This document shows positions 16,942 through 31,789 of a stretch of 64,000 bases of DNA, piece by piece (the stretch's first letter is position 1; each line of letters opens with the position of its first letter). Source of the DNA: Rhodospirillales bacterium BBD 1991-14 (GTDB lineage Bacteria; Pseudomonadota; Alphaproteobacteria; Kiloniellales; Kiloniellaceae); NCBI GenBank assembly GCA_001657395.1, contig LYSY01000011.1:1-64000 (forward strand), read 5' to 3'. Below the pieces are notes generated by a model that made no database searches, was not told the origin of the DNA, and was given only the letters and a program-made list of their open reading frames with translations. The position numbers were made by a program, and so were the translations under genes.

Positions 16942-17059
16942 TGACCGGCGACCAGGCCGTGACGCCTGACGTCGAGCACGTTAAGCTGCTTGCCTGATGC
17001 AAAGGCGCGGTCGCGCAGCCCCGGATACAAGGGGACAGCGGCTGTTGTGGGAGGATGCC

Positions 17060-17950
17060 ATGGACGCAGAGACGAGACGGGAAGTCCTGAGCGACACGCA
17101 GGTCCGGCACTACCGGGAGCGCGGCTATCTGGTGCTGGAGCGCCGAATCCCCGAGGATGTTCTGCAGGCGATCCGAAGGGAAATCGCCCGCTTCGTCGAG
17201 GAAGCCCGCGGTCTGACTGCCTCCAATGCCCGCCTCGACCTGGAAGACAGCCACCGGCCCGAGGCGCCGCGCCTGCGCCGCGTGAAGGCGCCTTACCAGC
17301 TTTCCTCCGTCTTCCGCGACCTCGCGCGCTCCGATTGGGTCCTGGCGCCGGTGCGCGACCTGCTGGGGCCGAACCTGCGCCTGCACGGCTCCAAGCTGAA
17401 CATGAAGGCTGCCGGCTACGGCGCCGCCGTGGAATGGCACCAGGACTGGGCTTTCTATCCCCACAGCAATGACGATGTCCTGGCTGTGGGTGTCATGATC
17501 GACGACATGGCGGCGGAGAACGGCCCGCTGATGGTCTTTCCCGCTTCGCACGAGGGCCCGGTCCATGACCATCACAGCGATGGCGTCTTTGCCGGGGCCA
17601 TGGATCTTGGCGCTTCAGCGCTCGACCCGCAGGACGCCGTCATGCTGACGGGGCCGGCAGGCTCGATCTCGTTGCACCACGTGCGCACCGTGCACGGCTC
17701 CGCAGTCAACCGATCCGACCGCGACCGCCGCCTGCTGCTCTACGAGATTGCCGCGGCCGATGCCTTTCCGCTCGTCGGCTCCACCTCGCCCTACGAGGAC
17801 TTCGCGGAGTTTCAGTCGCGCATGCTCTGCGGCCAGGCCACGCAGGAGCCACGGCTGCGCGCGGCGCCCGTGCGCATCCCCCAGCCGCCGCCGGCAACCC
17901 AGGGCTCGATCTACGAGATCCAGAAGGCCCTAAAGGCGCGCAGCTTCTAG
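17060..17950 (+). CDS. phytanoyl-CoA dioxygenase (PhyH) family protein
   Basis: Fe(II)/2-oxoglutarate-dependent oxygenase-like protein of 296 residues with the double-stranded beta-helix facial triad: H and D in VEWHQDWAFYPHSNDD and the distal H in SLHHVRTVHGSAVN, followed by the 2-oxoglutarate-binding Arg region RSDRDRRLL. The N-terminal YRERGYLVLERRIPEDVLQAI is typical. GGGAGGATGCC precedes the ATG at 17060. Related bacterial enzymes hydroxylate amino acids, ectoine or other small acids; the substrate here is unknown. Confidence 0.88.
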   Translation: MDAETRREVLSDTQVRHYRERGYLVLERRIPEDVLQAIRREIARFVEEARGLTASNARLDLEDSHRPEAPRLRRVKAPYQLSSVFRDLARSDWVLAPVRDLLGPNLRLHGSKLNMKAAGYGAAVEWHQDWAFYPHSNDDVLAVGVMIDDMAAENGPLMVFPASHEGPVHDHHSDGVFAGAMDLGASALDPQDAVMLTGPAGSISLHHVRTVHGSAVNRSDRDRRLLLYEIAAADAFPLVGSTSPYEDFAEFQSRMLCGQATQEPRLRAAPVRIPQPPPATQGSIYEIQKALKARSF

Positions 17951-17986: not shown

Positions 17987-18778
17987 TCACGGCGGATCGC
18001 AAACGAGGGAACCGCTGATACCAAGCGACCCGCGGGCGAAGCTGTCGAAGTCCGCCCCCCAGATCGCCCTGTTGCCCCAGGCGAACTGGTCATGGCCCGG
18101 CATGGAAGGCTGAAGAGGATACTCGTGAAGACGGAAATCCTTGGCACGCTCCCGGCCAAGCCTGTGCAGGGATCTGGAGAATTCGACTGGCGCATGAAGA
18201 TCGTGCTGCGCGTGTTGAAGCAGGATCGGCGCCCGTGAAAGCGCCAGCGCGCGAATGAGGGCCGGCTGCGTGACCTCCTGCGCCTGATCCCCGGCCGCAG
18301 GGGCCTGGAGCACCGTTCCGCGGACATCCAGATCGGCCTGGGCGAGAAAGCTCACGATGCCGCCATGGGAGCATCCGCAAAGCAGGACCCTCGAGGTGTC
18401 GGCCCAGCCCTGGGAGTCAAGCCAGGCAACCGCGGCGACCACATCCCGGGCGCGGCCGCCCAGGAAGGTCCAGACGTCCTGCATGCTGCCGCAGTCCGCA
18501 AGTTGCGGACCGGTCGAAGCCCCGTATCCGCGCCCCTCCGGAAACACAACGGCGCAGGAGCCGTCGCGCACGCCGCGCCAAAGCGGGGTCTCGAAGCTCA
18601 GCGTCGAGCAAGCGGAATCGATGCGGCCGTCCGCCTGCTGTCTGGATCCGTGATTGTAGACGACGACGGGAACCCGCCCGGCCGACCGGGGCCGCATCAC
18701 CCAGAGGTCGATCACGTACCCATCCGAGCCATAGGTCGTGCGCTCGATCAGTCCCGCCGGCGGTGTCGATTGAGCCAT
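17987..18778 (-). CDS. alpha/beta hydrolase (dienelactone hydrolase/peptidase S9-like)
   Basis: Hydrolase-fold protein of 263 residues without a signal peptide. VPVVVYNHGSRQQADG supplies the oxyanion strand and the nucleophile elbow is LLCGCSHGGIVS. APILLQHAQHDLHAPVEFS is the usual acid-residue strand, and the catalytic His is probably in PSMPGHDQFAWG. The region before the elbow (DVVAAVAWLDSQGWADTSRV) is characteristic of dienelactone or prolyl-oligopeptidase-like hydrolases. Substrate unknown; it lies upstream of and convergent with the PhyH gene. Confidence 0.82.
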   Translation of the reverse strand: MAQSTPPAGLIERTTYGSDGYVIDLWVMRPRSAGRVPVVVYNHGSRQQADGRIDSACSTLSFETPLWRGVRDGSCAVVFPEGRGYGASTGPQLADCGSMQDVWTFLGGRARDVVAAVAWLDSQGWADTSRVLLCGCSHGGIVSFLAQADLDVRGTVLQAPAAGDQAQEVTQPALIRALALSRAPILLQHAQHDLHAPVEFSRSLHRLGRERAKDFRLHEYPLQPSMPGHDQFAWGNRAIWGADFDSFARGSLGISGSLVCDPP

Positions 18779-18845: not shown

Positions 18846-20054
18846 TCAGGGAAGCCGGGTCGCGCCGCAGTCGATCATCCCGGCGATCTCGGCATCGGAG
18901 AACCCGGCCTCGGCCAGCACCTCGCGGCTGTGTTGGCCCAGCAGCGGCGCCGGCATTGTGACCGCAGTCGGCGTGGCGGAGAACTTCACCGGCGAACCCA
19001 GCGCCTTGGTCCTGCCGACAGTGGCGTGCTCGGTCTCGACGATCATCCCGCGCGCCAGGGTCTGCGGGTCGCGGTGCATCTCGTTGACCGTCAGCACCGG
19101 CCCGGCGGGCAGCCCCCCTGCCTCCAGGATGTCCAGCCAGTCCGCTGTCCGCCGCTGGCGGAAGATCGCGTTCAGAATGGTCTCCAGGTGAAGGCGGTGC
19201 TGCATGCGCCCGGCGTTGTCCTGAAAGCGATGGTCTTCCAGCAGTTCCGGGGCCTCGATCAGCTTCGCCAGACGCTCCCAGTTTGCTTGGTTGGCGGCGC
19301 CGATGTTGATCCATCCGTCGGCCGTCTCGAAGGCCTGGTAGGGTGCATTCAGGGGATGGGCGGAGCCCAGAGGCTCCGGCGTCTCACCCGTAGCCAGCGC
19401 GATTGCCGACTGCCAGAAGGTCTGCGTGATGCCGGCCTCGAACAGCGAGGTGTCGACCATCTGCCCCTCGCCGGTCTTCAGTTTGTGGGCATAGGCGGCG
19501 GCAATACCCATGGCACCCAGAACGCCGGCCGTGATGTCGCTGACCGGCGGGCCCACCTTCACGGGCGGACGGCCCGGTCCCTCCCCCGTCACCGACATCA
19601 GGCCCGACATGCCCTGGGCAATCAGGTCGAAGCCGCCGCGCTCCGCATAGGGGCCGCTGCGTCCGAAGCCGGAAAGAGCGCAGTAGATGAGCCCCGGGTT
19701 CTCCCGGCGCAGCGTTTCGTAGCCGAGGCCCAGTCGCTCCATGGTGCCCTTGCGGTAGTTCTCGATCACCACGTCGGCGTCGCGCAGCAGGCGGCGCAGA
19801 GCCTCCTTGCCCTCGGGCTGCTTGAGGTCCAGGACGATGCCCCGCTTGTTGCGGTTCATCATCATGAAGGCCGCGCTCTCGCCGCCGACGGTCGGCGGCA
19901 CCATGCGGCGCGTATCGTCGCCGGAAACCTTTTCCACCTTGATCACGTCGGCACCCATGTCGGCCAGCAGCATGCCGGCTGCCGGCCCGGCCATGATGTG
20001 GGCCAGTTCGATCACCCGGCAGCCGCTGAGCGGCCCTGAGCGTGCTGCCGCCAC
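18846..20054 (-). CDS. CaiB/BaiF family (class III) CoA-transferase
   Basis: CoA-transferase of 402 residues, a family that moves CoA between acyl-CoA and a free carboxylate through an aspartyl intermediate. Seen: LSGCRVIELAHIMAGPAAGMLLADMGADVIKVE, NRNKRGIVLDLKQPEG, and ERGGFDLIAQGMSG holding the candidate catalytic Asp. The C-terminal LGSPVKFSATP is also typical. The GTG start at 20054 directly follows the TGA of the enoyl-CoA hydratase gene; a TTG at 20090 within that gene is an alternative. It is the last gene of an operon with a TRAP transporter, so it probably activates an imported carboxylate or a breakdown product of it. Confidence 0.9.
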   Translation of the reverse strand: MAAARSGPLSGCRVIELAHIMAGPAAGMLLADMGADVIKVEKVSGDDTRRMVPPTVGGESAAFMMMNRNKRGIVLDLKQPEGKEALRRLLRDADVVIENYRKGTMERLGLGYETLRRENPGLIYCALSGFGRSGPYAERGGFDLIAQGMSGLMSVTGEGPGRPPVKVGPPVSDITAGVLGAMGIAAAYAHKLKTGEGQMVDTSLFEAGITQTFWQSAIALATGETPEPLGSAHPLNAPYQAFETADGWINIGAANQANWERLAKLIEAPELLEDHRFQDNAGRMQHRLHLETILNAIFRQRRTADWLDILEAGGLPAGPVLTVNEMHRDPQTLARGMIVETEHATVGRTKALGSPVKFSATPTAVTMPAPLLGQHSREVLAEAGFSDAEIAGMIDCGATRLP

Positions 20055-20055
20055 T

Positions 20056-20850
20056 TCAGCGGCCCTGCCAGTCGGGCTTGCGCTTGGCAAGGAAGGCCTC
20101 CAGCCCCTCGCGGAAATCTGCGCTGGTGTAGCAGGAAACGATCAGGTCCCTGTCCTCGACGTCATTTTGGGCAAGGCGGCGCAGGCCTTCCTTGGTGGCG
20201 CGGAGGGTGAGCGGCGCCTGCTCGGCCAACGTCTCGGCCAGGTTCCTGGCGCGCGCCATCAAGGCCGCATGGTCGTCCAGGATCTCCGAGACCAGGCCGG
20301 CGGCCAGCGCTTCCTCGGCGCGGACAAGGCGGCTGGTGAAGATGATCTCCCGCGTACGCCCGGCCCCCAGCAGCGCCGAAAGACGGGCGAGGTTCGCCAC
20401 CGAGAGGCAGTTGCCCAGGGTTCGGGCAATGGGAAAGCCGAACTTCAGGTCGGCGGTTGCGATGCGCAGGTCGCAGGCGGCGGCGATGGCCGCCCCGCCG
20501 CCGGTGCAGGCCCCCGCGATGGCGGCGATGGTGGGCAGCGGGCAGGTCTCGACCGCGCCCAGCACCGCATCGATCTTGTCCTCATAGTCGAGCGCATGCT
20601 GGTCGGTCGTGAAGCCGCGGAACTGGGCAATGTCGGTACCGGCGGCAAAGGCTTTCTCGCCGGCGCCGGTGATGACCAGGACCTTGACGCCCAGGTCTTC
20701 CGGCGCGCGGCAGAGCTCCGCCAGCCGCTCGTACATGGCAAAGGTGAGCGCGTTGCGCGCCTGCGGCCGGTTCAGGGTGATGAGGCCGAGCGCACCGTCG
20801 CGCTCGAACAGCAGTTCTTCGGTCTTTTCGGCGGGGGCGGGTGCGCTCAT
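20056..20850 (-). CDS. enoyl-CoA hydratase/isomerase family protein
   Basis: Crotonase-fold enzyme of 264 residues. LITLNRPQARNALTFAM, then KAFAAGTDIAQFR and AIAGACTGGGAAIAAACDLRIA form the two oxyanion-hole segments. FGFPIARTLGNCLSVANLARL replaces the classical Glu-bearing GxxPE motif, so a standard hydratase mechanism is not assured. The gene starts 10 bp after dctM and leads directly into the CoA-transferase gene, forming a CoA-ester pair. It could act as hydratase, isomerase, hydrolase or lyase on the CoA ester. Confidence 0.9.
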   Translation of the reverse strand: MSAPAPAEKTEELLFERDGALGLITLNRPQARNALTFAMYERLAELCRAPEDLGVKVLVITGAGEKAFAAGTDIAQFRGFTTDQHALDYEDKIDAVLGAVETCPLPTIAAIAGACTGGGAAIAAACDLRIATADLKFGFPIARTLGNCLSVANLARLSALLGAGRTREIIFTSRLVRAEEALAAGLVSEILDDHAALMARARNLAETLAEQAPLTLRATKEGLRRLAQNDVEDRDLIVSCYTSADFREGLEAFLAKRKPDWQGR

Positions 20851-20860
20851 GCCAGGGCTC

Positions 20861-22141
20861 CTAGCGGTAGAGGGTTTCCACGAGGAACATAGGGATGGCC
20901 GGAACGTAGGTGCAAATCAAGAGCACGGTCAGCAGAACCGCCACGAAATAGACGTTCACCTTGGAAACCGCCCAGATGTTCGCGCGCGCAACGGCGCAGG
21001 ATGTGATCAGAACGCTGGCGACCGGGGGCGTCTGCTGCCCGATCGCGAGATTCAGGGTCACCACCAGGCCGAAGTGGACGGGATCGATCCCGGCCGCGGA
21101 GATCAGCGGGATGACGATCGGGACCACCAGGATGATCGCTGCCGCTGAATGCAGGAAGAAGCCGACCACCAGAAAGAAGAAGTTGAGGATCAGCAGGATC
21201 ACGTACTTGTTGTCGGTGAAGTCCAGGATTGCCGCCGCCAGTTGCTGGGGCATCTGGGCACGGGTGAGGAAGCCCCCCATCAGGACGGAGGCCGCCACCA
21301 GCAGCATGACGACCGCGGTCTGCATGCCGCCGTCCAGCATGGCGCGCTTCAGGTGCTTCAGGTTGAGCTGCCGGTACCAGAGGCCGACCAGGAAGGCCGC
21401 GATGACCGCCAGGCCCGCCGCTTCGGTGGCGGTGACGAAGCCGCCGAAGATGCCGCCCAGGATGATGACGGGCAGCGAGAAAGCCGGCAGCGCCTCCATG
21501 AAGGTGTGGCGCAGACGGCGGAGGTTGAAGGCCTCCTCCACCGGCAGGTTGTAACGCCGGGCGAAGAGGTAGGCGACGAACATCAGCCCCGCCGCCCCCA
21601 GCAGACCCGGCACGACGCCGGCGACGAAAAGCTGCTCCACCGAGGTGTTGGCGGAGGTGGCGTAGAGGATCATCGGGATCGAGGGCGGGATGATGATCGC
21701 CAGCGAGGCCGAGGACGAGGTGACAGCGGCCGCCAGAGGCGCGCTGTAGCCGCGCTTTTTCATCTGCGGGATCAGAATGGAGCCAAGAGCCGCCACGTCG
21801 GCGACCGCCGAGCCCGAGATCTCGGCAAAGAACAGCGACACCCCGATGTTGACCATCGCCAATCCGCCTTTGACGAAGCCAATGAGGGCGGAGACGAAGT
21901 TGATCAGCCGGTCGGTGATGCCGCCGGCATTCATGATCGCGCCAGCCAGCACGAACATGGGAATGGCGATGAGGGCAAACTTGGTGGAGCCGTCGTACAT
22001 GTCCAGCGCCACCGTGACCAGGCTGTCCGGCCCCTCGGTGACCAGCAGCCCGAGAACGCCGGAAACGGCCAGCGCGACGGCAATGGGGACGTTGAGGCAG
22101 ATCATCACCAGCAGGGCGATGAAAATGAGGAGCATCAGCAT
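20861..22141 (-). CDS. TRAP transporter large permease, DctM family
   Basis: Membrane protein of 426 residues with about a dozen hydrophobic segments, the ion-coupled transport subunit of a tripartite ATP-independent periplasmic carboxylate importer. Signatures include ALIAIPMFVLAGAIMNAGGITDRL, FFAEISGSAVADVAALGSILIPQMKKRGY, SASLAIIIPPSIPMILYA and GLVVTLNLAIGQQTPPVASVL. It begins 3 bp after dctQ and is followed 10 bp later by an enoyl-CoA hydratase gene. Confidence 0.94.
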   Translation of the reverse strand: MLMLLIFIALLVMICLNVPIAVALAVSGVLGLLVTEGPDSLVTVALDMYDGSTKFALIAIPMFVLAGAIMNAGGITDRLINFVSALIGFVKGGLAMVNIGVSLFFAEISGSAVADVAALGSILIPQMKKRGYSAPLAAAVTSSSASLAIIIPPSIPMILYATSANTSVEQLFVAGVVPGLLGAAGLMFVAYLFARRYNLPVEEAFNLRRLRHTFMEALPAFSLPVIILGGIFGGFVTATEAAGLAVIAAFLVGLWYRQLNLKHLKRAMLDGGMQTAVVMLLVAASVLMGGFLTRAQMPQQLAAAILDFTDNKYVILLILNFFFLVVGFFLHSAAAIILVVPIVIPLISAAGIDPVHFGLVVTLNLAIGQQTPPVASVLITSCAVARANIWAVSKVNVYFVAVLLTVLLICTYVPAIPMFLVETLYR

Positions 22142-22144
22142 CGC

Positions 22145-22705
22145 TCAGCGCTCTCCCTGCCGGTCCATGTTCTGGGCGTTCTTCATCTCCTGCTCCACCT
22201 CCTCCTCGATCTCGGCGTGTTCGAGGGAGGTCCCCGCGATGGTCATGCGCCAGTACTCCGGAAAAGAGAGGATCTCGCAGAGAATGAAGAGAACGGCGCC
22301 AATGGGGATGACCGATTGGGTGAACTGCACCGGCACCCAGGTCAGCGAGACCAGCCGGTCGCCTTCGAGGACCGCCAGCACCTGCATGCCGGCCCAGGCC
22401 ATCAGCGCGAAGAAGCCGATGACGATCACTTCAGCAAAGATGACGGCGACCTTGCGAATGCCTATCGGCAGCGACAGCAGCACGGAATCGAAACCGATGT
22501 GGCGGCGTTTGAGCGCCGCCAGGGCCGCGCCGTAGTAGGTGATCCAGGCAAGTTGGATCGCCGCCACTTCGTCATACCAACTGAAGGAATTGCCGGCCAG
22601 GCGGTAGAGCACGGCGACGATCACCACCACGCTCAACAGGATCATCAGGATGATCGTCACCCATTCCAGCAGCCATTCGAGGCCCCGCCTCGCCGCCGCG
22701 AGCAT
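22145..22705 (-). CDS. TRAP transporter small permease, DctQ family
   Basis: Four-helix membrane protein of 186 residues. Seen: LEWLLEWVTIILMILLSVVVIVAVLYR, then SWYDEVAAIQLAWITYYGAALAALKRRHIGFD, the DctQ signature. The start at 22705 is chosen because GGAGGAGATCTGGAGC precedes it; a GTG 16 codons upstream (22753) has no ribosome site. The extended acidic C-terminus (AEIEEEVEQEMKN) is unusual for the family. It partners with DctM and DctP around it. Confidence 0.92.
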   Translation of the reverse strand: MLAAARRGLEWLLEWVTIILMILLSVVVIVAVLYRLAGNSFSWYDEVAAIQLAWITYYGAALAALKRRHIGFDSVLLSLPIGIRKVAVIFAEVIVIGFFALMAWAGMQVLAVLEGDRLVSLTWVPVQFTQSVIPIGAVLFILCEILSFPEYWRMTIAGTSLEHAEIEEEVEQEMKNAQNMDRQGER

Positions 22706-22796
22706 GCTCCAGATCTCCTCCGCTGCGCGCCCTTTTCCGGCGCGTCTTATCACGCTCCGTTACGGCGGAGCTTCTTGAAGGGGAAACAGAGGGAAA

Positions 22797-22830
22797 GGCC
22801 CGGGCGGAAGCAAAACGCAGCGCCCGGGCC
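22797..22830 (-). promoter_or_regulatory. intercistronic hairpin between dctP and dctQ
   Basis: Ten-base arms GGCCCGGGCG (22797-22806) and CGCCCGGGCC (22821-22830) form a perfect GC stem with a 14-base loop, 16 bp after the dctP stop. On the transcribed strand the hairpin is followed by a pyrimidine-rich run with TTTCCCTCTGTTTCCC. It fits an attenuator or a 3' stabiliser that keeps dctP mRNA more abundant than the permease message, a common arrangement in binding-protein operons. Confidence 0.7.
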
Positions 22831-22846
22831 CCGGAAACGGTTCAGG

Positions 22847-23830
22847 TCACGACCCCTCGGCCAGCCGCAGGACGGTGTCGATCAGCTCCTGGCCGCCCTC
22901 GACACTCTCGGCAAACTCGTCGTAGATCGGCTTGGAGGCCTCGACGAAGGCCGCCTTGTCGGCGGTGTTCACCTGCATACCGCCGTCGGTCAGCCTCTGC
23001 AGCAGGTCTTCCTCCAGGCGCGCGGCCTCTTCGTAGACGAAGTCCTGCGTCTCCCGGCCGCACTGCAGGAGCGCGCTCTGCACGTTCTCCGGAAGGCGGG
23101 CGAAGTGCTTGTCGGAGACCAGCACATAGGCCGGCGTGTAGACGTGGCCGGTGATGGAGAGATAGGTCTGCACTTCCTGGAACTTGGCGGAATAGATCTG
23201 GGCGTAGGGGTTCTCCTGCCCGTCGATCACCTTGGTCTGCAGGGCAGTAAAAACCTCGGAGAACGCCATCGGCGTCGGGTTGGCGCCGTAGAGCTGGAAC
23301 ATCTTCACCCGCCACGCGCCGCTCGGGGTGCGCAGCTTGATGCCGGACAGGTCGTCCGGCGTGTTGATGGGCCGGATGTTGTTGGTGATGTTGCGGAAGC
23401 CGTTTTCGAACAGACCGATGATGCGATAGCCCCTGGCCTGGGCGGCCTTCTGGAAGGTGCTCTCCATCAGTTCCGCCTGGACCCGGCGCATATGCTCGCG
23501 GTTCTGGATGATATAGGGCATCTCGAAGACGCCGAACTCGTCGGCCACCGACGACATCACCGAGGACGGCAGGGCGAAATCGACCTGGCCGAGCTTAAGC
23601 TTCTGCAACAGCTCCTTGTCCTTGCCGAGCTGCGAGGAGCCGAAAGCCTGCACCTCGCCGGCATCGCCGAGCGCCGCGTTGGAGCAGGCCGCAAAGGCAT
23701 TGACCGAGGCTTCGAACAGCGATCCGGGCGCTCCGACGTGGCCGAATTTCAGGCTCAGTTTCTCGGCGAAGGCCGGGGTCGCGACGACGGAGACCAACGC
23801 GGCCCCCGCCAGAATCTTCATCACGCGCAT
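22847..23830 (-). CDS. TRAP transporter substrate-binding protein, DctP family
   Basis: Periplasmic receptor of 327 residues with a signal peptide (MRVMKILAGAALVSVVATPAFA, cleavage before EKLS). Family blocks are SLKFGHVGAPGSLFEASVNAF, SQLGKDKELLQKLKLGQVDF, GIKLRTPSGAWRVKMFQLYGANPTPMAFSEVFTALQTKVIDGQENP and VYTPAYVLVS. The Arg of KLRTPS is in the position that usually binds the ligand carboxylate, so a carboxylic acid is expected. It is transcribed after the aminotransferase and before dctQM. Confidence 0.93.
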   Translation of the reverse strand: MRVMKILAGAALVSVVATPAFAEKLSLKFGHVGAPGSLFEASVNAFAACSNAALGDAGEVQAFGSSQLGKDKELLQKLKLGQVDFALPSSVMSSVADEFGVFEMPYIIQNREHMRRVQAELMESTFQKAAQARGYRIIGLFENGFRNITNNIRPINTPDDLSGIKLRTPSGAWRVKMFQLYGANPTPMAFSEVFTALQTKVIDGQENPYAQIYSAKFQEVQTYLSITGHVYTPAYVLVSDKHFARLPENVQSALLQCGRETQDFVYEEAARLEEDLLQRLTDGGMQVNTADKAAFVEASKPIYDEFAESVEGGQELIDTVLRLAEGS

Positions 23831-23914
23831 GGTGTTTCCTCCCTTGCTGGTTCAGTCCCTGCCGCCGTTTGCTTGCCGCCCGGCGGTCTGTTGTTTCGGA
23901 ACGGATAGGGCGCC

Positions 23915-25132
23915 TCAGGCCGCTGAGGCGGAAGCCTGCTCCTTTCCGCAAAGATAGTCCAATGCTGCTTGCACGCCGCCGCGGCGGTGCGGGATGCCGG
24001 AGAGTTCCAGCCCCATCTCCACGCCGGAGAGCGTGCCCATCAGCATCAGGTCGTTGAAGTCGCCGAGATGGCCGATGCGGAAGACCTTGTCGGCGATCTT
24101 CGACAGCCCGTTGCCAAGCGACATGTTGAAGTTCTCGAGGGTAATCGCGCGGAAGGCGTCGGCGCTGTGCCCCTCCGGCACCAGGACCGCGGTGAGCGAC
24201 CCGGAGTAGTGCCGCGGCTCCAGGCAGAGCACCTCCAGGCCCCAGGCGCGCACCGCGCGGCGCGCGGCCTCACCATGGCGCTGGTGGCGCGCGAAGACGT
24301 TGTCCAGCCCTTCCTCGTGCAGCATCTCGATGGCCTCGACGAGGCCGTAGAGCAGGTTGGTCGCCGGTGTATAGGGGAAGTATCCCTTCGCGTTCGGCTC
24401 CGCCATCTCGTCCCAAGACCAGTAGGCGCGCGGCAGGGCGGCGCTCTGCGAGGCCGCCAGCGCCTTCTCGCTCACTGCGTTGAAGGAGAGACCCGGCGGC
24501 AGCATCAGGCCCTTCTGCGAGCCGGCGACGGTGACGTCGACGCCCCATTCGTCGTGACGGTAGTCGAGCGAGGCCAGCGAGGAGATCGTGTCGACCATCA
24601 GCAGGGCGGGATGGCCGGCAGCATCGATGGCGCGGCGAATCTCCGGCACCTGCGTTACCGATCCCGTCGAGGTTTCGTTGTGGACAACGCAGACCGCCTT
24701 GATGGCATGGCCGCTGTCGGCGCGCAGCCGTTCCTCGATCGCCTCGGGATCGGCGCCATGGCGCCAGTCGCCGGCGATGAACTCCGGCTCCAGGCCCAGG
24801 CGCTGGGCAAGCGTGTTCCACAAGGTCGCGAAGTGCCCGGTCTCGTACATCAGGACTTTGTCGCCGGGCGAGAGCGTGTTCACCAGCGCCGCTTCCCAGG
24901 CACCGGTGCCGGAGGCCGGATAGATCACCACCCTGCCCTCGGTCTTGAAGATCGACTTCATGCCTTCCAGCGCCTTGCCGCCGACGTCGGCGAAGGCGGG
25001 GCCGCGATGGTCCATGGTGGGATAGTCCATGGCGCGCAGCACCCGGTCGGGCACGTTGGTCGGCCCCGGAATCTGCAGGAAATGGCGGCCGGGCGCCGAA
25101 CCGGGGCGCTGAGCCCCTGGGCCTTTGGACAT
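23915..25132 (-). CDS. class V aminotransferase, serine-glyoxylate/aspartate-glyoxylate type
   Basis: PLP-dependent enzyme of 405 residues. IPGPTNVPDRVLRAMDYPTMDHRGPAF is the class V N-terminus, PASGTGAWEAALVNTLSPGD binds the cofactor phosphate, VVHNETSTG and MVDTISSLASLDYR are family blocks, and Lys of VAGSQKGLMLPPG is the Schiff-base lysine. It resembles serine-glyoxylate and BhcA-like aspartate-glyoxylate aminotransferases, so glyoxylate or another 2-oxo acid is the likely acceptor. A very strong GAGGAGGGAGGATCCC site precedes the ATG. It is the first gene of the minus arm, divergent from the FAD/Fe-S dehydrogenase that could supply the oxo acid. Confidence 0.9.
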   Translation of the reverse strand: MSKGPGAQRPGSAPGRHFLQIPGPTNVPDRVLRAMDYPTMDHRGPAFADVGGKALEGMKSIFKTEGRVVIYPASGTGAWEAALVNTLSPGDKVLMYETGHFATLWNTLAQRLGLEPEFIAGDWRHGADPEAIEERLRADSGHAIKAVCVVHNETSTGSVTQVPEIRRAIDAAGHPALLMVDTISSLASLDYRHDEWGVDVTVAGSQKGLMLPPGLSFNAVSEKALAASQSAALPRAYWSWDEMAEPNAKGYFPYTPATNLLYGLVEAIEMLHEEGLDNVFARHQRHGEAARRAVRAWGLEVLCLEPRHYSGSLTAVLVPEGHSADAFRAITLENFNMSLGNGLSKIADKVFRIGHLGDFNDLMLMGTLSGVEMGLELSGIPHRRGGVQAALDYLCGKEQASASAA

Positions 25133-25250
25133 GGGATCCTCCCTCCTCGCCGCCTGCCTTTCTCCGGCCCTTCCCGAGCGTTGCGGCCCAGGTTTTTTCT
25201 AAGAGCCGTTTGTGTAATCGGAAGGCTTGCCTTCGTCCTGAGAAAGACGT

Positions 25251-25284
25251 TATGAATTATGAATATTGAATACAAAATACAAAT
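25251..25284. promoter_or_regulatory. AT-rich divergent control region with TTGAATACAA-type sites
   Basis: A 34-base A/T-rich patch in otherwise GC-rich DNA lies between the divergent aminotransferase and dehydrogenase genes. TTGAATACAA at 25266-25275 has TTG/CAA dyad ends, and AATACAAAT overlaps it as a partial second copy. FCD-type GntR proteins often bind short AT-rich dyads of the form TTGTATACAA, and such a regulator is encoded by the second gene on the plus arm. I infer a shared operator and promoter for both arms. Confidence 0.55.
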
Positions 25285-25293
25285 CACCGGCGG

Positions 25294-28248
25294 ATGTCAA
25301 TGGCTGATGTGCAGCACCGCGACCAGGGAGCCCTCGCCCGGCGGCTGAACGCCGCGGTGGAGGGCGACGCCTTCGGGGACCCCTTCTCCCGCGGCCGCTA
25401 CGCCACCGACGCCTCGATCTATCAGGTGATGCCGCGCGCGGTCGTGGTGCCCAGGACCATGGCCGACGTCGAAACGACCTTGGCCATCGCCCGCGAGGAG
25501 GGCCTGGCGGTCCTGCCCCGCGGCGGCGGCACCTCCCAATGCGGGCAGACGGTGAACGATGCGGTGGTGATCGACTTCACCAAGCACCTGAACAAGGTGC
25601 TGTCGCTGGATGCCGTCGCAGGCACCGCCGAGGTCGAGCCGGGCCTCGTTCTCGACCATCTGAACGCCTCCCTCAAGCAGCACGGCCTGTGGTACCCGGT
25701 CGACGTCTCCACCGCCTCGCGCGCCACCCTGGGCGGCATGGCGGCCAACAACTCCTGCGGTTCGCGCTCCATCCGCTACGGCACCATGCGCGACAACGTA
25801 CTGGGCATTGATGCACTTCTGGCAGACGGCACCCGCATGGCCTTCGGGCCGGTTCCGCGCGATCTCAGCGGCATCAACAGTCCCGACCCGCGCCACGACC
25901 TGTTCCGCGACCTGCTCGACCTCGGCCGTCGCGAGGCCGGGGAGATCAAGGCGCGCTTCCCGGACCTGATGCGCCGCGTCGGCGGCTACAACATCGACTC
26001 CCTGGTGCCCAACGGCCCGACCAACAACCTTTCCCACCTGCTGGTCGGCTCCGAAGGCACCCTGGCTGTCAGCGAGAAGATCACGCTGCAACTCTCGCCG
26101 CTACCGTCCAACAAGGTGCTGGGCGTCTGCCATTTCCCCAGCTTCTATGAAGCGATGGACGCGGCCCAGCATCTGGTGACGCTCGATCCCACGGCTGTGG
26201 AGCTGATTGACCGCACAATGATCGAGCTGGGCCGGGAAATTCCCCTCTTCCGCCCCGTGGTCGAGCGCTTCGTACGCGGCGAGCCGGAGGCGATCCTGCT
26301 CGTGGAGTTCGCCGAGGAAGACCAGACCGAGAACCTGCGCCGCCTTAAGGCGCTGGGCGAGATGATGGCCCAGCTCGGCTTCCGCTGGGGCGATCCCGGC
26401 AAGAAGGACGGCGGCGTGGTGGAGGCCATCGATCCGGACTTCCAGAAACAGATCTTCGGCGTCCGCGCCCAGGGCCTCAACATCATGATGTCGATGAAGG
26501 AGGCGGGCAAACCGGTCTCCTTCGTCGAGGACTGCGCGGTGCGCCTGGAAGACCTCGCCGACTACACCCAGCGCCTGACCGAGATCTTCCGCAAGCACGG
26601 CACCATGGGCACCTGGTACGCCCATGCCTCGGTCGGCACCCTGCATGTGCGCCCTGTACTCAACCTGCGCCTCGACGGCGACGTCAAGGCCATGCGGGCC
26701 ATCGCCGAGGAAGCCTTCGAGATGGTGCGCGAATACCGCGGCTCCCACTCCGGCGAGCATGGCGACGGCATCGTGCGCTCGGAGTTCCACCGCGCCATGT
26801 TCGGCGAGCGCATGGTGGAAAGCTTCGAGTGGGTGAAGGACCGGCTGGACCCGGAGGGCCTGCTCAACCCGAACCGCATCGTGCGGCCGCCGGCCATGGA
26901 CGACCGCAGCCTGTTTCGCTATCCGCCGGACTACAAGGTGCCGGAGCTGCGCAGCGTGTTCGAATGGGCGGGCTATCCCGGTGCCGGGCGCGGCCTCCAG
27001 GGTGCGGTGGAGATGTGCAACAACAACGGCGCCTGCCGCAAGATCGGCGACGGCGTCATGTGTCCCTCCTACCGGGTCACCCGCAACGAACGCGATCTGG
27101 TGCGCGGCCGCGCCAATACCCTGCGCCTGGCCATCTCCGGCCAGTTGGGTCCGGACGCCATGACCTCCGAGGACATGGCGGAAACCATGAAGCTCTGCGT
27201 CTCCTGCAAAGGTTGCCGGCGCGAATGCCCGACCGGCGTCGACATGGCCAAGATGAAGATCGAGGTGCTGGCGGCGCGCGCCGAGAAACACGGCCTGTCG
27301 CTGCGCGACCGCCTGGTCGCGCACCTGCCGCGCTATGCGCCCTGGGCGGCGCGCTTGGCAAGCGTCTTGAACCTGCGCGACCGCCTGCCGGGCGCCGCCG
27401 GGCTCTCTGAGAAGCTGCTGGGCCTCAGCGCCGCGCGCAGCCTGCCCAAGTGGCGGCACAGGCCCTACCGGCCCACCGCTGCAGGGGACGACAACGCGGA
27501 AGTCCTCCTCTTTGCCGATACCTTCAACCGCTACTTCGAGCCGGAGAACCTGCAGGCCGCCGAATCGGTGCTGCAGCGCGCGGGCCTGACGCTTGGCCAC
27601 GCACAGCCGGACGACGGCGGCCGTCCGCTGTGCTGCGGGCGCACCTATCTGGCCGCCGGGCTGGTGAGGGAGGCCAAGGCGGAGATGCGTCGGACCGTCG
27701 CCGCTCTGAAGCCCGCCCTTGAGCGCGGCGCAGCGGTGGTCGGGCTGGAGCCGTCCTGCCTGCTGACCTTCCGCGACGAGGCGCCCGCCCTGCTCGGCGA
27801 TGACTGGTCCGCCGAACTGGGAAGCCGGGTCCTGCTGTTCGAGGAGTTCATCGCCCAGAAGCTTGATAACGGCGGCTTCGACCTGCTGCTTGAAGCCCTG
27901 CCGCAGAAAAAGGCGCTGCTCCACGGCCACTGCCACCAGAAGGCGTTCAACGCCGTGACGCCGGTGCAGCGGGCGCTCGGCATGATCCCCGATCTTGCGG
28001 TAGACTTGGTCGAGTCGTCCTGCTGCGGCATGGCCGGCGCGTTCGGCTACCAGGCCGAAACGCTGGAGGTTTCGCGGGCCATGGGCGAACTCAGCCTGCT
28101 GCCGGCCGTCCGCGCCGCCGATGCAGAGACTATTGTGGTGGCCGACGGCACGTCCTGCCGGCACCAGATTGCCGATGGCAGCGCCCGCGAAGCCGTGCAT
28201 GTCGCGGTGGTGCTGGAAGAAGCCAGCCGCGCCGCGGCCGGGAAGTGA
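25294..28248 (+). CDS. FAD-binding and (Fe-S)-binding oxidoreductase, GlcD-GlcF/D-2-hydroxyacid dehydrogenase fusion
   Basis: Large fused flavoprotein of 984 residues. Residues about 40-200 are a PCMH/FAD_binding_4 domain (PRGGGTSQCGQ, GGMAANNSCGSRSIRYG, GTLAVSEKITLQL), about 260-530 the FAD-oxidase C-terminal domain (GTLHVRPVLNL, HSGEHGDGIVRSEF). Then come iron-sulfur ligands in CVSCKGCRRECP and two CCG-type domains (CCGRTYLAAGL, HGHCHQKAF, SSCCGMAGAFGY). This layout is that of dehydrogenases oxidising D-2-hydroxy acids such as glycolate, D-lactate or 2-hydroxyglutarate to the oxo acid and feeding electrons to the respiratory chain. A second in-frame ATG lies at 25300. Confidence 0.92.
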   Translation: MSMADVQHRDQGALARRLNAAVEGDAFGDPFSRGRYATDASIYQVMPRAVVVPRTMADVETTLAIAREEGLAVLPRGGGTSQCGQTVNDAVVIDFTKHLNKVLSLDAVAGTAEVEPGLVLDHLNASLKQHGLWYPVDVSTASRATLGGMAANNSCGSRSIRYGTMRDNVLGIDALLADGTRMAFGPVPRDLSGINSPDPRHDLFRDLLDLGRREAGEIKARFPDLMRRVGGYNIDSLVPNGPTNNLSHLLVGSEGTLAVSEKITLQLSPLPSNKVLGVCHFPSFYEAMDAAQHLVTLDPTAVELIDRTMIELGREIPLFRPVVERFVRGEPEAILLVEFAEEDQTENLRRLKALGEMMAQLGFRWGDPGKKDGGVVEAIDPDFQKQIFGVRAQGLNIMMSMKEAGKPVSFVEDCAVRLEDLADYTQRLTEIFRKHGTMGTWYAHASVGTLHVRPVLNLRLDGDVKAMRAIAEEAFEMVREYRGSHSGEHGDGIVRSEFHRAMFGERMVESFEWVKDRLDPEGLLNPNRIVRPPAMDDRSLFRYPPDYKVPELRSVFEWAGYPGAGRGLQGAVEMCNNNGACRKIGDGVMCPSYRVTRNERDLVRGRANTLRLAISGQLGPDAMTSEDMAETMKLCVSCKGCRRECPTGVDMAKMKIEVLAARAEKHGLSLRDRLVAHLPRYAPWAARLASVLNLRDRLPGAAGLSEKLLGLSAARSLPKWRHRPYRPTAAGDDNAEVLLFADTFNRYFEPENLQAAESVLQRAGLTLGHAQPDDGGRPLCCGRTYLAAGLVREAKAEMRRTVAALKPALERGAAVVGLEPSCLLTFRDEAPALLGDDWSAELGSRVLLFEEFIAQKLDNGGFDLLLEALPQKKALLHGHCHQKAFNAVTPVQRALGMIPDLAVDLVESSCCGMAGAFGYQAETLEVSRAMGELSLLPAVRAADAETIVVADGTSCRHQIADGSAREAVHVAVVLEEASRAAAGK

Positions 28249-28262
28249 CTGCGAGAGGGATC

Positions 28263-28937
28263 ATGAGCCTGCCACAACCCGAGGTGATCAGCCGCCGCCC
28301 GCTCCACTACGAGCTGGTCGACCGGCTGCGCGACATGATCATCCAGGGCGAGCTGGAGCCGGGCCAGAAGATCTCGGAAAAAGCGCTCTGCGAACGCTTC
28401 GGCGTTTCCCGCACGCCGCTGCGCGAGGCGATAAAGATTCTGGCCGCTGACGGCTTCCTGGACCTGACGCCGCACCGCGGCGCCTCGGTGGTGAAGCTGA
28501 CCCTGAAGGATTTCGAAGAGGCGCTGCCCATTATGGGCGCCCTTGACGCCGTCGCGGGGGAACTGGCCTGCCAGAATGCCACCGACGCGGAGATCGAAGA
28601 ACTGGCCGCCCTCACCGATCACATGACCGAACGCTTCAAGGCCGGCGACCTGATAGGGTATTACAAATTGAACTCCCGTATCCACGAGCTGATCATGGAG
28701 ATGGCGCGCAACCCGACACTGACCCAGACGATGCGGGTGCTGTCGGAGCGCATGCGCCGGGCGCGCTATGAACTGGCGATGGCGCCGGCGCGCTGGGCCC
28801 AGGCGGTGGACGAGCACCAGGCCATGGTGAAGGCGATCCAGAACCGCAAGGGCGTGCAGCTCGGCCGCATCATGAAGGTGCACGTCATCCACAAGCTGCA
28901 GGACCTGCAGGCCCACCTCTTCGCCGAGGAGCGATAG
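28263..28937 (+). CDS. GntR family transcriptional regulator, FCD type
   Basis: Regulator of 224 residues: an N-terminal winged helix (LVDRLRDMIIQGELEPGQKISEKALCERFGVSRTPLREAIKIL), then an all-helical FCD ligand-binding domain (about 90-215) with conserved Asp/His residues including HELIMEMARNPTL. The ATG at 28263 has AGAGGGA upstream; a GTG overlapping the previous stop codon is a weaker alternative. It follows the dehydrogenase by 14 bp in the same operon and probably represses both arms of this locus until a carboxylate inducer appears. Confidence 0.93.
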   Translation: MSLPQPEVISRRPLHYELVDRLRDMIIQGELEPGQKISEKALCERFGVSRTPLREAIKILAADGFLDLTPHRGASVVKLTLKDFEEALPIMGALDAVAGELACQNATDAEIEELAALTDHMTERFKAGDLIGYYKLNSRIHELIMEMARNPTLTQTMRVLSERMRRARYELAMAPARWAQAVDEHQAMVKAIQNRKGVQLGRIMKVHVIHKLQDLQAHLFAEER

Positions 28938-28946
28938 GCCCCTGCT

Positions 28947-30020
28947 CTAGCTCGCGTGGTCGCGGTAGAGCCGGCCGGTCGGGGTGTCCAGGAAGGCCTC
29001 GAAGGGGATTTCCTCCTGCTTGATGAACCCTTGCGCCGGCAGTTTACCCTCATTCACCATCTCGATGACCGCGCAGGCCGAAGCTGAGGTGGTCCAGGCA
29101 ATCGCCGTCCAGCGCTCCCCCGCCACCGCGATGGGGTAGTAGGCCTGGACGTACTCCTTGCGGTTCAGCCGGTCGTCGGACCAGCCTTCCGCCGAGACGT
29201 GGACATAGACCACGTCGTCGTCCACCGGCGGTTTGGCGTGGGTGAGGATCTCGCCCGCAAGACCGCGGCGCTCGCGCATCAGGAGTTCGTGGAAGAAGAA
29301 GTTCATCATGTCCACGTGGCCGGGATAGCGCATGGACTTGTAGTCCAGGTTCTCGATCCGCCCCTCGAAGGTCTCGCACATGGTGCCGAGACCGCCCGAA
29401 GTGGTGAAGGCCTCCAGCTTCACGCCCCCGACGTAAAGAGTCTCGATCCATTCCATCGGGGAGACCCATTTGTGCTGGCCCTCCTCGATCACCTCGCAGT
29501 CGTTCAGGTACTCGTTCACCACCCCTTCCGGCGACCAGTTGAAGGCGTAGCCCAGATGGCCGGTCGGGTGCTGCGGCAGGGCGCCGACGCGCATGCGCAG
29601 GGTGCGGACGGATTCGAACTGGCCGGCAAGGTGGGCGCCGACGATCCCGACAAAGCCCGGCGCCAGCCCGCACTGCGGCGCCATCACGCCCTTGGAGGTC
29701 TTCGCCAGCTCGCGGATCGCCTGGGTGGTGGGCACGTCCTCGGTGAGGTCGAAGTAGTGCAGCCCCTCCTGGTGGGCGGCGGTGGCGATGGCCGTGTTGA
29801 GGGCGTATGGCAGGCAGGAGATGACGGCGTCGTAGGGGCGCAGGAGCGCAGGCAAGGCAGCCGCGTCGGTCAGATCGGCGGAGACGACCGCGAAGGGCGG
29901 CGTGCGGCGCAGCTTGCGCGTATCGACGCCCTTCACCTGGAACCCGGCCTCTGTCAGCATCCGCGCGGTCAGGGAGCCGACCTTGCCGAGGCCCAGGACG
30001 GCGATCTTCTCAATGGACAT
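28947..30020 (-). CDS. saccharopine dehydrogenase-like NAD(P)-binding oxidoreductase
   Basis: Protein of 357 residues. The Rossmann motif is IAVLGLGKVGSLTARML, followed by DAVISCLPYALNTAIATAAHQEGLHYFDLTED and GLAPGFVGIVGAHL, the standard saccharopine dehydrogenase/lysine dehydrogenase pattern. The C-terminal domain includes EAFTTSGGLGTMCETFEGRIENLDYKSMRYPGH. Members act on amino acids with a secondary or omega amine, or as reductases in lysine and opine metabolism. It converges on the GntR gene with a 9-bp gap, so it may belong to the same catabolic locus; its exact substrate is not predictable. Confidence 0.87.
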   Translation of the reverse strand: MSIEKIAVLGLGKVGSLTARMLTEAGFQVKGVDTRKLRRTPPFAVVSADLTDAAALPALLRPYDAVISCLPYALNTAIATAAHQEGLHYFDLTEDVPTTQAIRELAKTSKGVMAPQCGLAPGFVGIVGAHLAGQFESVRTLRMRVGALPQHPTGHLGYAFNWSPEGVVNEYLNDCEVIEEGQHKWVSPMEWIETLYVGGVKLEAFTTSGGLGTMCETFEGRIENLDYKSMRYPGHVDMMNFFFHELLMRERRGLAGEILTHAKPPVDDDVVYVHVSAEGWSDDRLNRKEYVQAYYPIAVAGERWTAIAWTTSASACAVIEMVNEGKLPAQGFIKQEEIPFEAFLDTPTGRLYRDHAS

Positions 30021-30304: not shown

Positions 30305-31789
30305 TCACTTGCTCTCGGGATAGAACTGCATGAAGCCCTTGTCGTTGGGCGGGGAAACCGGCCATTGGCGACCGCGGGTGGCGGAGAGCGAGCGGTTGGG
30401 GCCCGGAACGAAGGTCCGGGCGGGCTCGCCGACGAGGGCGCCGTCGCGAATCCAGCTCTCGTCCGAACCGTAGAGCTCGCTCAGCAGGCGCTGGGACAGC
30501 TCGCTGCGCAGGTTGTCGAGGCCCGGGTCGCCGGCGCGGTCCTGGAGTTCCTGCGGATCCTCCTGGAGGTCGAACAACTGCAGGCGGTTGCCGCAGGGAT
30601 ACCAGATCAACTTGTGGCGGCCGTTGCGCAGCATGCGCGAGGCATGGGGGCCTTCGCCGAACTCGCCGTAGAGTGTCTCGCGCCGGGCCTCCCCGACCAT
30701 CGACAGCCCCTCCACGCTCTCTGGAACCGCAACGCCGCAGAGGTCGAGCAGGGTCGGCATGACGTCGCGCAGGCAGACCAGACGGTCGTCCTCCCGGCCA
30801 AAGCCGACGCGGTCGTCGCCGGGCATGCCCATCAGGATCATGGGGATGCGGCTGGCGTTTTCGTAGAGGACCTGCTTGGCCCACATGCCGTGATTGCCCA
30901 GCATGTCGCCGTGGTCGGCGGTGAACAGCAGGATGGTCTCATCCAGGATGCCCTCGTCGCGCAGGGTACCGATGAGCGAGCCGATCTGGTGATCGATGTG
31001 GGTGCAAAGCGCGTAGAAGGCGCGCCGGGCGGCAAGAATCTGCTGCCGGCTGAGAGAGTCGCCGCGCGCCTGGGTGGCCTGGGCGTTATAGGGCAGCGCG
31101 CCGCGCTCCTCCGCCCAGGCCCCAACGTAGGGCAGGTCGATCTCGATATCCCGGTAGAGATCGACATAGCTTTGCAGCGGAACCAGCGGCGGGTGCGGGT
31201 GACGGTAGCCGCAGTACCAGAGACTGGGGCGCTTCGGATCGCGCCGCTTGATCGCGCGCACGGTCATGCGGGTCGCCCAGTTGGTGGCATGGGTTTCTTC
31301 CGGCAGATGCCAGGGGCGCCAGGCGTAGTTGTTGTTGCTCATGCCGTGGTCGTACTGACGGCCGAGGAAACCGGCGTCCCCGAGATAGATCTCGTAGTCG
31401 TCGGTGACGCCAAAGATAGTGCGCCCCTCGTCGTCCAGCAGCACGTCGTCGAAGCCGATGCGGTCGCGCTGCGGATAGACGTGGATCTTGCCGACCGCCT
31501 GGGCCTGATAGCCGGCATCGCGGAAGGTCTGGGCCAGGGTCGGCAGGTCCGGCATCTGCAGGGTCGGCTGAAAGCTCCGGTCGCCGTGACGGCGCGCCGA
31601 AGTCCCGGTCATCAGCGAGCGCCGCGCCGGCAGGCAGACCGGGTGCTCCGAATAGGCAGAGGTGAAGCGCAGGCCGTTGCGCGCGAGTTGGTCAAGGATC
31701 GGTGTCTGGACCGCCGGATGCCCGGCGATCCCCAGGAGATCGCCGAACCAGTGATCCGTAACGATGAGCAGGACGTTGGGGCGGGTCAT
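30305..31789 (-). CDS. type I sulfatase-like hydrolase (formylglycine sulfatase or phosphonate monoester hydrolase)
   Basis: Alkaline-phosphatase-superfamily hydrolase of 494 residues. NVLLIVTDHWFGD holds a metal-binding Asp, HPVCLPARRSLMTG carries the C-x-P-x-R motif at Cys52-Arg56 that is converted to formylglycine, and TADHGDMLGNHGMW supplies further metal ligands. There is no signal peptide, so it acts in the cytoplasm on an imported sulfate or phosphonate ester. It is the last gene of the tct-LacI operon and its ATG directly follows the TGA of the LacI gene (TGAATG). The maturase is not in the window. Substrate unknown. Confidence 0.9.
   Translation of the reverse strand: MTRPNVLLIVTDHWFGDLLGIAGHPAVQTPILDQLARNGLRFTSAYSEHPVCLPARRSLMTGTSARRHGDRSFQPTLQMPDLPTLAQTFRDAGYQAQAVGKIHVYPQRDRIGFDDVLLDDEGRTIFGVTDDYEIYLGDAGFLGRQYDHGMSNNNYAWRPWHLPEETHATNWATRMTVRAIKRRDPKRPSLWYCGYRHPHPPLVPLQSYVDLYRDIEIDLPYVGAWAEERGALPYNAQATQARGDSLSRQQILAARRAFYALCTHIDHQIGSLIGTLRDEGILDETILLFTADHGDMLGNHGMWAKQVLYENASRIPMILMGMPGDDRVGFGREDDRLVCLRDVMPTLLDLCGVAVPESVEGLSMVGEARRETLYGEFGEGPHASRMLRNGRHKLIWYPCGNRLQLFDLQEDPQELQDRAGDPGLDNLRSELSQRLLSELYGSDESWIRDGALVGEPARTFVPGPNRSLSATRGRQWPVSPPNDKGFMQFYPESK

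Follow-up and report, generated by a model that had tools for sequence, protein, structure and literature searches.

We describe here a divergent gene cluster in the window, a stretch of 64,000 nucleotides of contig LYSY01000011.1 from Rhodospirillales bacterium BBD 1991-14, whose 5.5-Mb genome is assembled in 21 contigs. The core of this cluster consists of two divergent units with eight genes in all (positions 18846-28937), and it is a real module, with a larger range than its preliminary description could know. We interpret it, with a probability slightly under one half (about 0.45), as one inducible module for the catabolism of a small 2-hydroxy carboxylate, whose oxidation would give glyoxylate or a close 2-oxo acid. 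As read from the sequences, the module is characterised by its gene content, its conservation, the swapping of its importers, and a predicted operator at one site.

The leftward unit encodes an aminotransferase, the three subunits DctP, DctQ, and DctM of a tripartite ATP-independent periplasmic (TRAP) transporter, a crotonase-fold protein, and a family III CoA-transferase. The rightward unit encodes a fused GlcD/GlcF-type dehydrogenase, then a GntR-FCD regulator. The core features are as follows:

18846..20090, minus strand: CaiB/Frc-type family III CoA-transferase (PF02515, 456 bits; best NCBIfam match NF052585, 365 bits, cut-off 750)
20056..20850, minus strand: crotonase-fold protein of the PRK06144 type (NF004796, 378 bits, cut-off 272)
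20861..22141, minus strand: TRAP large permease DctM (PF06808, 382 bits; TIGR00786, 384 bits, cut-off 268)
22145..22753, minus strand: TRAP small permease DctQ (PF04290, 74 bits)
22847..23830, minus strand: TRAP solute-binding protein DctP (PF03480, 287 bits)
23915..25132, minus strand: class V aminotransferase of the BhcA / serine-glyoxylate aminotransferase type (NF045640, 466 bits, cut-off 650)
25260..25281, no strand: predicted operator in the divergent promoter gap, two overlapping copies of TGWATWNNNWATWCA
25294..28248, plus strand: fused FAD / 4Fe-4S / CCG D-2-hydroxy acid dehydrogenase of the GlcD+GlcF type (PF01565, PF02913, PF13183, PF02754)
28245..28937, plus strand: GntR-FCD regulator (PF00392, 68 bits; PF07729, 91 bits)

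Domain and NCBIfam profile searches found all the genes named in the preliminary description at their coordinates and with matching families. For the GlcD-GlcF-like dehydrogenase, the family stood, and the description was corrected to one 984-amino-acid protein with FAD domains, a 4Fe-4S part, and a CCG part. The regulator gene overlaps the dehydrogenase gene by 4 bases. The start codon of the CoA-transferase is uncertain and, as called, its gene overlaps the crotonase gene by 35 bases.

We infer the substrates, the order of the steps, the action of the CoA-transferase and crotonase (hereafter the CoA pair), and the match between regulator and operator. The TRAP system would import the acid, and the CoA pair would act on a CoA ester of this same acid. 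The fused FAD/Fe-S enzyme would oxidise a D-2-hydroxy acid to glyoxylate or a closely similar 2-oxo acid, and the electrons would go to the respiratory chain. From this oxo acid, the class V aminotransferase would make an amino acid, and the conversion of glyoxylate into glycine is the likeliest final step. The GntR regulator, bound at 25260-25281, would control both arms. Import, 2-hydroxy acid oxidation, transamination, and glyoxylate as the likely oxo acid had already been proposed, and they fit both the family matches and the bhcB/bhcC, bhcABCD, and GlcG-like neighbours presented below.

The preliminary description had made the joint conservation of these genes in other genomes its main test, and co-occurrence and adjacency in 241 genomes and 80 loci bear it out for the core genes. 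The 80 related loci are the best 80 of 570 from a dehydrogenase scan of named genomes; 53 of them are titled Bradyrhizobium, and some are short contigs, so that gene counts are lower bounds. The aminotransferase is present in 77 of these loci and a crotonase in 61, and six loci unite TRAP, aminotransferase, dehydrogenase, crotonase, and CoA-transferase. The class sample comprises 241 genomes, our own included, with the class Alphaproteobacteria assigned by inference. Its thresholds were E ≤1e-250 for the dehydrogenase, ≤1e-160 for the aminotransferase, and ≤1e-80 for the window-type crotonase (this last one misses a second crotonase type found in streamlined genomes), and scoring in the three enzyme searches was confined to the 10, 3, or 7 top-ranked candidates of each genome. 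We found the dehydrogenase in 45 genomes, the aminotransferase in 44, and the window-type crotonase in 10. Dehydrogenase and aminotransferase occur together in 38 genomes, six others having the aminotransferase without the dehydrogenase, and this linkage is far above chance (Fisher p ~1e-30, relatedness not corrected). In 26 of the 38, the two genes lie at most 3 kb apart. All ten genomes with the window-type crotonase hold both other enzymes (hypergeometric p ~2e-8 without our own genome; relatedness not corrected). Of 23 genomes or records chosen for a separate survey, 18 have the window-type crotonase and 15 have the CoA-transferase.

The core set recurs in alpha-, beta-, and gammaproteobacteria and in two 1.2-Mb genomes. 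A Limimaricola variabilis plasmid matches the gene order of the window gene for gene. A Caballeronia plasmid carries the aminotransferase, the dehydrogenase, an MFS transporter, the crotonase, the CoA-transferase, and a BhcC-like protein (374 bits, cut-off 690), and an Acidiphilium plasmid carries the CoA-transferase, the crotonase, a BASS transporter, and the aminotransferase, the dehydrogenase not being nearby. In Cupriavidus metallidurans the set comes with TctA/TctC, and more distant copies in Halomonas come with TRAP. The two 1.2-Mb genomes, each in a single contig (1,211,322 and 1,199,990 bases; 32% GC in the stretches read), keep dehydrogenase, aminotransferase, DctPQM, crotonase, and CoA-transferase together, and no GntR match was found beside the module in either of them. 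Their size and GC content suggest a SAR11-like group. Among the literature matches listed, no title or abstract opening describes this gene set, which does not prove its absence from print.

Depending on the locus, the importer slot is filled by TRAP, TctABC, MFS, or BASS systems. Among the 80 loci, the module-type TRAP large permease (at least 75% identity) is present in 14 and TctA or TctC in 46, and no locus has both. In the window, all three TRAP subunits score above their Pfam cut-offs. The best PDB profile match of DctP is 4nq8 (241 bits), a target of the Enzyme Function Initiative (EFI), reportedly modelled with pantoate. The structure model of DctP is mediocre (pLDDT 76.5) and gave no substrate. 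The window genome (G000) encodes 25 DctP-type solute-binding proteins, a large TRAP repertoire.

The divergent gap contains the only matches to TGWATWNNNWATWCA in the whole 5.5-Mb window genome. We derived this pattern by visual inspection of 13 loci before counting. Of 81 divergent pairs, 21 have it in their gap, and the 1,650,010 bases of these loci hold no match outside the gaps; most of the 60 remaining pairs are from Bradyrhizobium. Ten of the 21 gap matches fall outside the 13 source loci, as does the match in L166, some of these loci being close relatives of the source loci. In L166, where the dehydrogenase is elsewhere, the site lies between the aminotransferase and GntR genes. We also searched 14 whole genomes. 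Twelve of them have a match, and several have matches at other places as well (up to seven in G038), those outside the module arising by chance or otherwise; the pattern is absent from G027 and G039, and the reversed pattern matched in three of the 14. Judging by this distribution, the operator is likely bound to the locus, and the GntR protein of the module would be the regulator that binds it.

The aminotransferase is most closely related, among solved structures, to serine-glyoxylate aminotransferase (PDB 6pk1, 363.6 bits; 6pk1/6pk3 align over residues 13-394), from which it differs as a member of a bacterial subfamily with a putative substrate. With 466 bits against a cut-off of 650, it falls outside BhcA (NF045640), and it shares 45% identity with the BhcA annotated in Tateyamaria, a genome in which this BhcA stands separately beside the module's own aminotransferase. 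Six module aminotransferases that we compared are 43-47% identical to this same BhcA. Ten sampled members of the subfamily are 59-80% identical to one another and 41-48% identical to an annotated BhcA, and therefore, at the level of sequence, these enzymes look like a subfamily of their own, distinct from BhcA. Three of these ten (L112, L113, L114; 63-75% identical to the window's) are located in other clusters, with amidase, hydantoinase/dihydropyrimidinase, Asp/Glu racemase, or fumarylacetoacetase-like genes, which suggests a wider family of such aminotransferases beyond the module.

The neighbourhood of the module speaks for glyoxylate. In two Filomicrobium loci, bhcB (598 and 588 bits, cut-off 550) is directly behind the TRAP genes, with a bhcC at 645 bits, below the cut-off of 690, beside it. 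There, bhcBC take the place of the CoA pair, which is intact elsewhere in both genomes. Among the 80 loci, two have bhcB. In Tateyamaria, bhcR-bhcABCD and a heme-binding (GlcG-like) gene adjoin the module, and a GlcG-like gene is found in 60 of the 80 loci. Together, the bhcB/bhcC or bhcABCD genes of these three loci and the GlcG-like genes point to glycolate/glyoxylate chemistry. One of the closest known systems is the beta-hydroxyaspartate cycle with glycolate oxidase of Paracoccus denitrificans, which has in common with the module a glyoxylate-type class V aminotransferase linked to a GlcD-type dehydrogenase and a GntR-type regulator of the glycolate arm (PMC11323563). However, the window adds a CoA-transferase and a crotonase, a fused dehydrogenase replaces GlcDEF, and the aminotransferase, as described above, shares only 45% of its residues with BhcA and scores too low for the BhcA family. 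Moreover, the best BhcB match in the window genome reaches 261 bits (NF045641, cut-off 550; this cut-off is exceeded in eight of 22 chosen genomes). The window genome is thus without BhcB, and therefore does not run the beta-hydroxyaspartate cycle with these genes.

The dehydrogenase leaves room for another acid. It is a single chain of 984 amino acids that joins GlcD-like and GlcF-like parts, and it belongs to the VAO/PCMH-type FAD D-2-hydroxy acid dehydrogenases fused to a GlcF-type Fe-S part (FAD_binding_4, FAD-oxidase_C, Fer4, CCG), its CCG domain being weak (22.9 bits, cut-off 20.6). Its HASVGTLH motif aligns to HVGDGNFH of D-lactate dehydrogenase and also to D-2-hydroxyglutarate dehydrogenases, at the paired-histidine metal site of such enzymes. 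In the NCBIfam search it reaches no equivalog cut-off: it scores 104 and 99 bits in two pieces against GlcD (TIGR00387, cut-off 567.9) and 495 bits against YdiJ (NF049975, cut-off 1350). It resembles the YdiJ-type D-2-hydroxyglutarate dehydrogenase by its family and by its single chain of ~1000 amino acids with FAD, 4Fe-4S, and CCG domains, but differs from it by this score and by the aminotransferase that adjoins the module dehydrogenase in 77 of 80 loci. Single stops reported in G063, G118, and G152 had suggested a selenocysteine or a broken dehydrogenase gene. Re-scanning led us to reject this: in two of these genomes the aligned protein contains no stop, and in the third the stop is at its very end.

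The substrate could be a different D-2-hydroxy acid (e.g., D-lactate, D-malate, D-2-hydroxyglutarate, or pantoate) with an oxo acid other than glyoxylate, the glyoxylate-linked neighbours reflecting only the amino acceptor of the aminotransferase. We regard this as possible, though clearly less probable than the glyoxylate interpretation. It is consistent with the dehydrogenase being nearest to the YdiJ/D-lactate/D-2-hydroxyglutarate group, with canonical-type GlcD-like genes coexisting with the module, and with a PanS-like transporter in the Acidiphilium locus (167 bits, cut-off 400). The DctP match points the same way: 4nq8 is the closest solved relative, and a passage of a review gives pantoate/D-erythronate among the ligands of the EFI programme (PMC5812351). 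On the contrary, bhcB/bhcC or bhcABCD adjoining the module in three loci, the GlcG-like genes in 60 of 80, and the distance from the YdiJ cut-off (495 of 1350) argue for glyoxylate.

The crotonase departs from its preliminary description as a hydratase. The protein does belong to the crotonase fold and to the PRK06144 subfamily (NF004796, 378 bits, cut-off 272), and its model (pLDDT 93) superimposes on 50 listed crotonase chains with TM-scores of 0.80-0.90 (query length). However, an alignment to Clostridium Crt gives alanine and isoleucine at both places of the catalytic glutamates, which correspond to E144 and E164 of the rat enzyme. Enoyl-CoA hydratases carry both, and because the window protein has neither, its activity in hydration is doubtful. 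No glutamate is conserved at these two places among 54 crotonase members; R143, an arginine two positions away from where the second glutamate aligns, is conserved. Three distant crotonases (L110, L162, L163), from Caballeronia and from the streamlined genomes, retain the first glutamate only. The crotonase slot thus holds two types, one without either catalytic glutamate and one that keeps the first; L075 and L115 carry relatives of the second type by similarity. As for the CoA-transferase, it shares fold and family with the formyl-CoA:oxalate and succinate-glutarate CoA-transferases (family III) but differs from them by its pairing with a crotonase and by scores below every curated cut-off listed, including that of succinate-glutarate CoA-transferase (NF052585, 365 of 750 bits). 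A malonyl-CoA synthase beside the Tateyamaria module was considered as a stand-in for the CoA-transferase and set aside, because a second TRAP with an AMP-binding gene spans the record start there.

The preliminary description had also considered a compound cleaved into a C2 unit and an acyl chain. In such a route, the crotonase would be both hydratase and lyase, splitting a CoA-activated compound so that glyoxylate is released as the C2 unit and an acyl-CoA is left. The CoA pair does share a gene run with a glyoxylate-type aminotransferase, as this route would have it, but the crotonase has alanine and isoleucine at the hydratase glutamate places, and no aldolase or lyase was seen among the constant members, no test having been aimed at the cleavage step; we now hold this cleavage to be very unlikely. 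A hypothetical hydroxymalonate (tartronate) route is likewise highly improbable. The acid would enter by TRAP or TctABC and be converted by CoA transfer to hydroxymalonyl-CoA, which the glutamate-free crotonase would decarboxylate to glycolyl-CoA; CoA transfer back would free glycolate, which the fused dehydrogenase would oxidise to glyoxylate, and transamination would then yield glycine. If true, this route would explain the whole core gene set, the conserved R143, the swapped acid importers, and the glyoxylate-linked neighbours. It is weakened by loci in which this TRAP is present but the CoA pair does not adjoin it.

Such loci also raise the question of whether one regulator governs two separate pathways, the dehydrogenase and aminotransferase converting glycolate into glycine, and the CoA pair carrying out an acyl-CoA conversion that has nothing to do with it. 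Five loci (L020, L023, L028, L029, L097) hold TRAP, aminotransferase, and dehydrogenase with the CoA pair not adjoining; the pair stands apart from the rest in L149, L150, and L151; L175 has a TRAP-CoA-transferase-crotonase cluster with the other two enzymes not nearby; and some genomes have dehydrogenase and aminotransferase without the pair. Yet the ten of ten genomes in which the window-type crotonase comes with both other enzymes, and the single gene run that the pair forms with a transporter and the aminotransferase in alpha-, beta-, and gammaproteobacteria, favour one pathway, and we judge the division into two improbable.

Several observations weigh against a single glyoxylate-forming module. 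At the thresholds used, seven of the 45 dehydrogenase genomes are without the aminotransferase, and G030, G033, and G040 carry dehydrogenase and aminotransferase with neither the window-type crotonase nor the CoA-transferase. In the stretches searched, the operator was not near the CoA pairs that stand apart. DctP is ~23-34% identical to the closest solved structures and, because this identity amounts to only about a third, its ligand is not fixed. Finally, the window genome has a canonical-type GlcD-like gene (C8:207667, 538 bits, cut-off 567.9) with a second GlcD/GlcE-like match beside it, and one at 507-539 bits, below 567.9, is found in 13 of 14 genomes chosen among the 51 that have the module dehydrogenase and/or aminotransferase. 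Plain glycolate is disfavoured as the substrate, because glycolate would then be served twice.

The substrate of the module is likely a widespread dissolved acid, because the dehydrogenase-aminotransferase pair is present in 38 of 241 genomes of the class, and the wider set reaches beta- and gammaproteobacteria and is retained in two complete streamlined 1.2-Mb genomes. Unneeded genes are rare in such genomes. The predicted single-site operator, the four exchangeable importer types, and the crotonase without catalytic residues reduce the problem to short testable questions, namely the ligand of DctP and the reaction of the crotonase. With an answer, many genomes would be annotated more precisely, as these genes now carry only general names there (enoyl-CoA hydratase, CoA transferase, class V-fold enzyme, FAD-linked oxidase).

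Two further genes lie near the core:

28947..30020, minus strand: saccharopine-dehydrogenase-like gene, a neighbour outside the core set
16997..17950, plus strand: phytanoyl-CoA-dioxygenase-like gene (PF05721)

The saccharopine-dehydrogenase-like gene had been counted as part of the set, from which its occurrence in none of the 80 related loci removes it. In a congener (G019), it is located ~5.4 kb past the GntR gene. In a genome of the same family (G006), a 7-kb contig with this gene (L161) carries no module gene, and the module contig (L160) ends inside the dehydrogenase gene. An alpha/beta-hydrolase (17987-18778) and a sulfatase (30305-31789) were rejected as members, each being found in none of the 80 loci at the thresholds used. 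The sulfatase adjoins the saccharopine-dehydrogenase-like gene in three congeners. It belongs to a run that flanks the module on the minus strand (30305-34419) and also contains a LacI-type regulator and a TctA-type permease, all named by eye from translations. The phytanoyl-CoA-dioxygenase-like gene is found in just one of the 80 loci, and its relatives adjoin the module in two congeners (L158, 76%; L159, 78%) and in Pelagibius (L021, 69%). In L151, L163, and L170, parts of the module are flanked by GMC oxidoreductase-like and enolase-superfamily-like genes, also named by eye, which may encode feeder enzymes.

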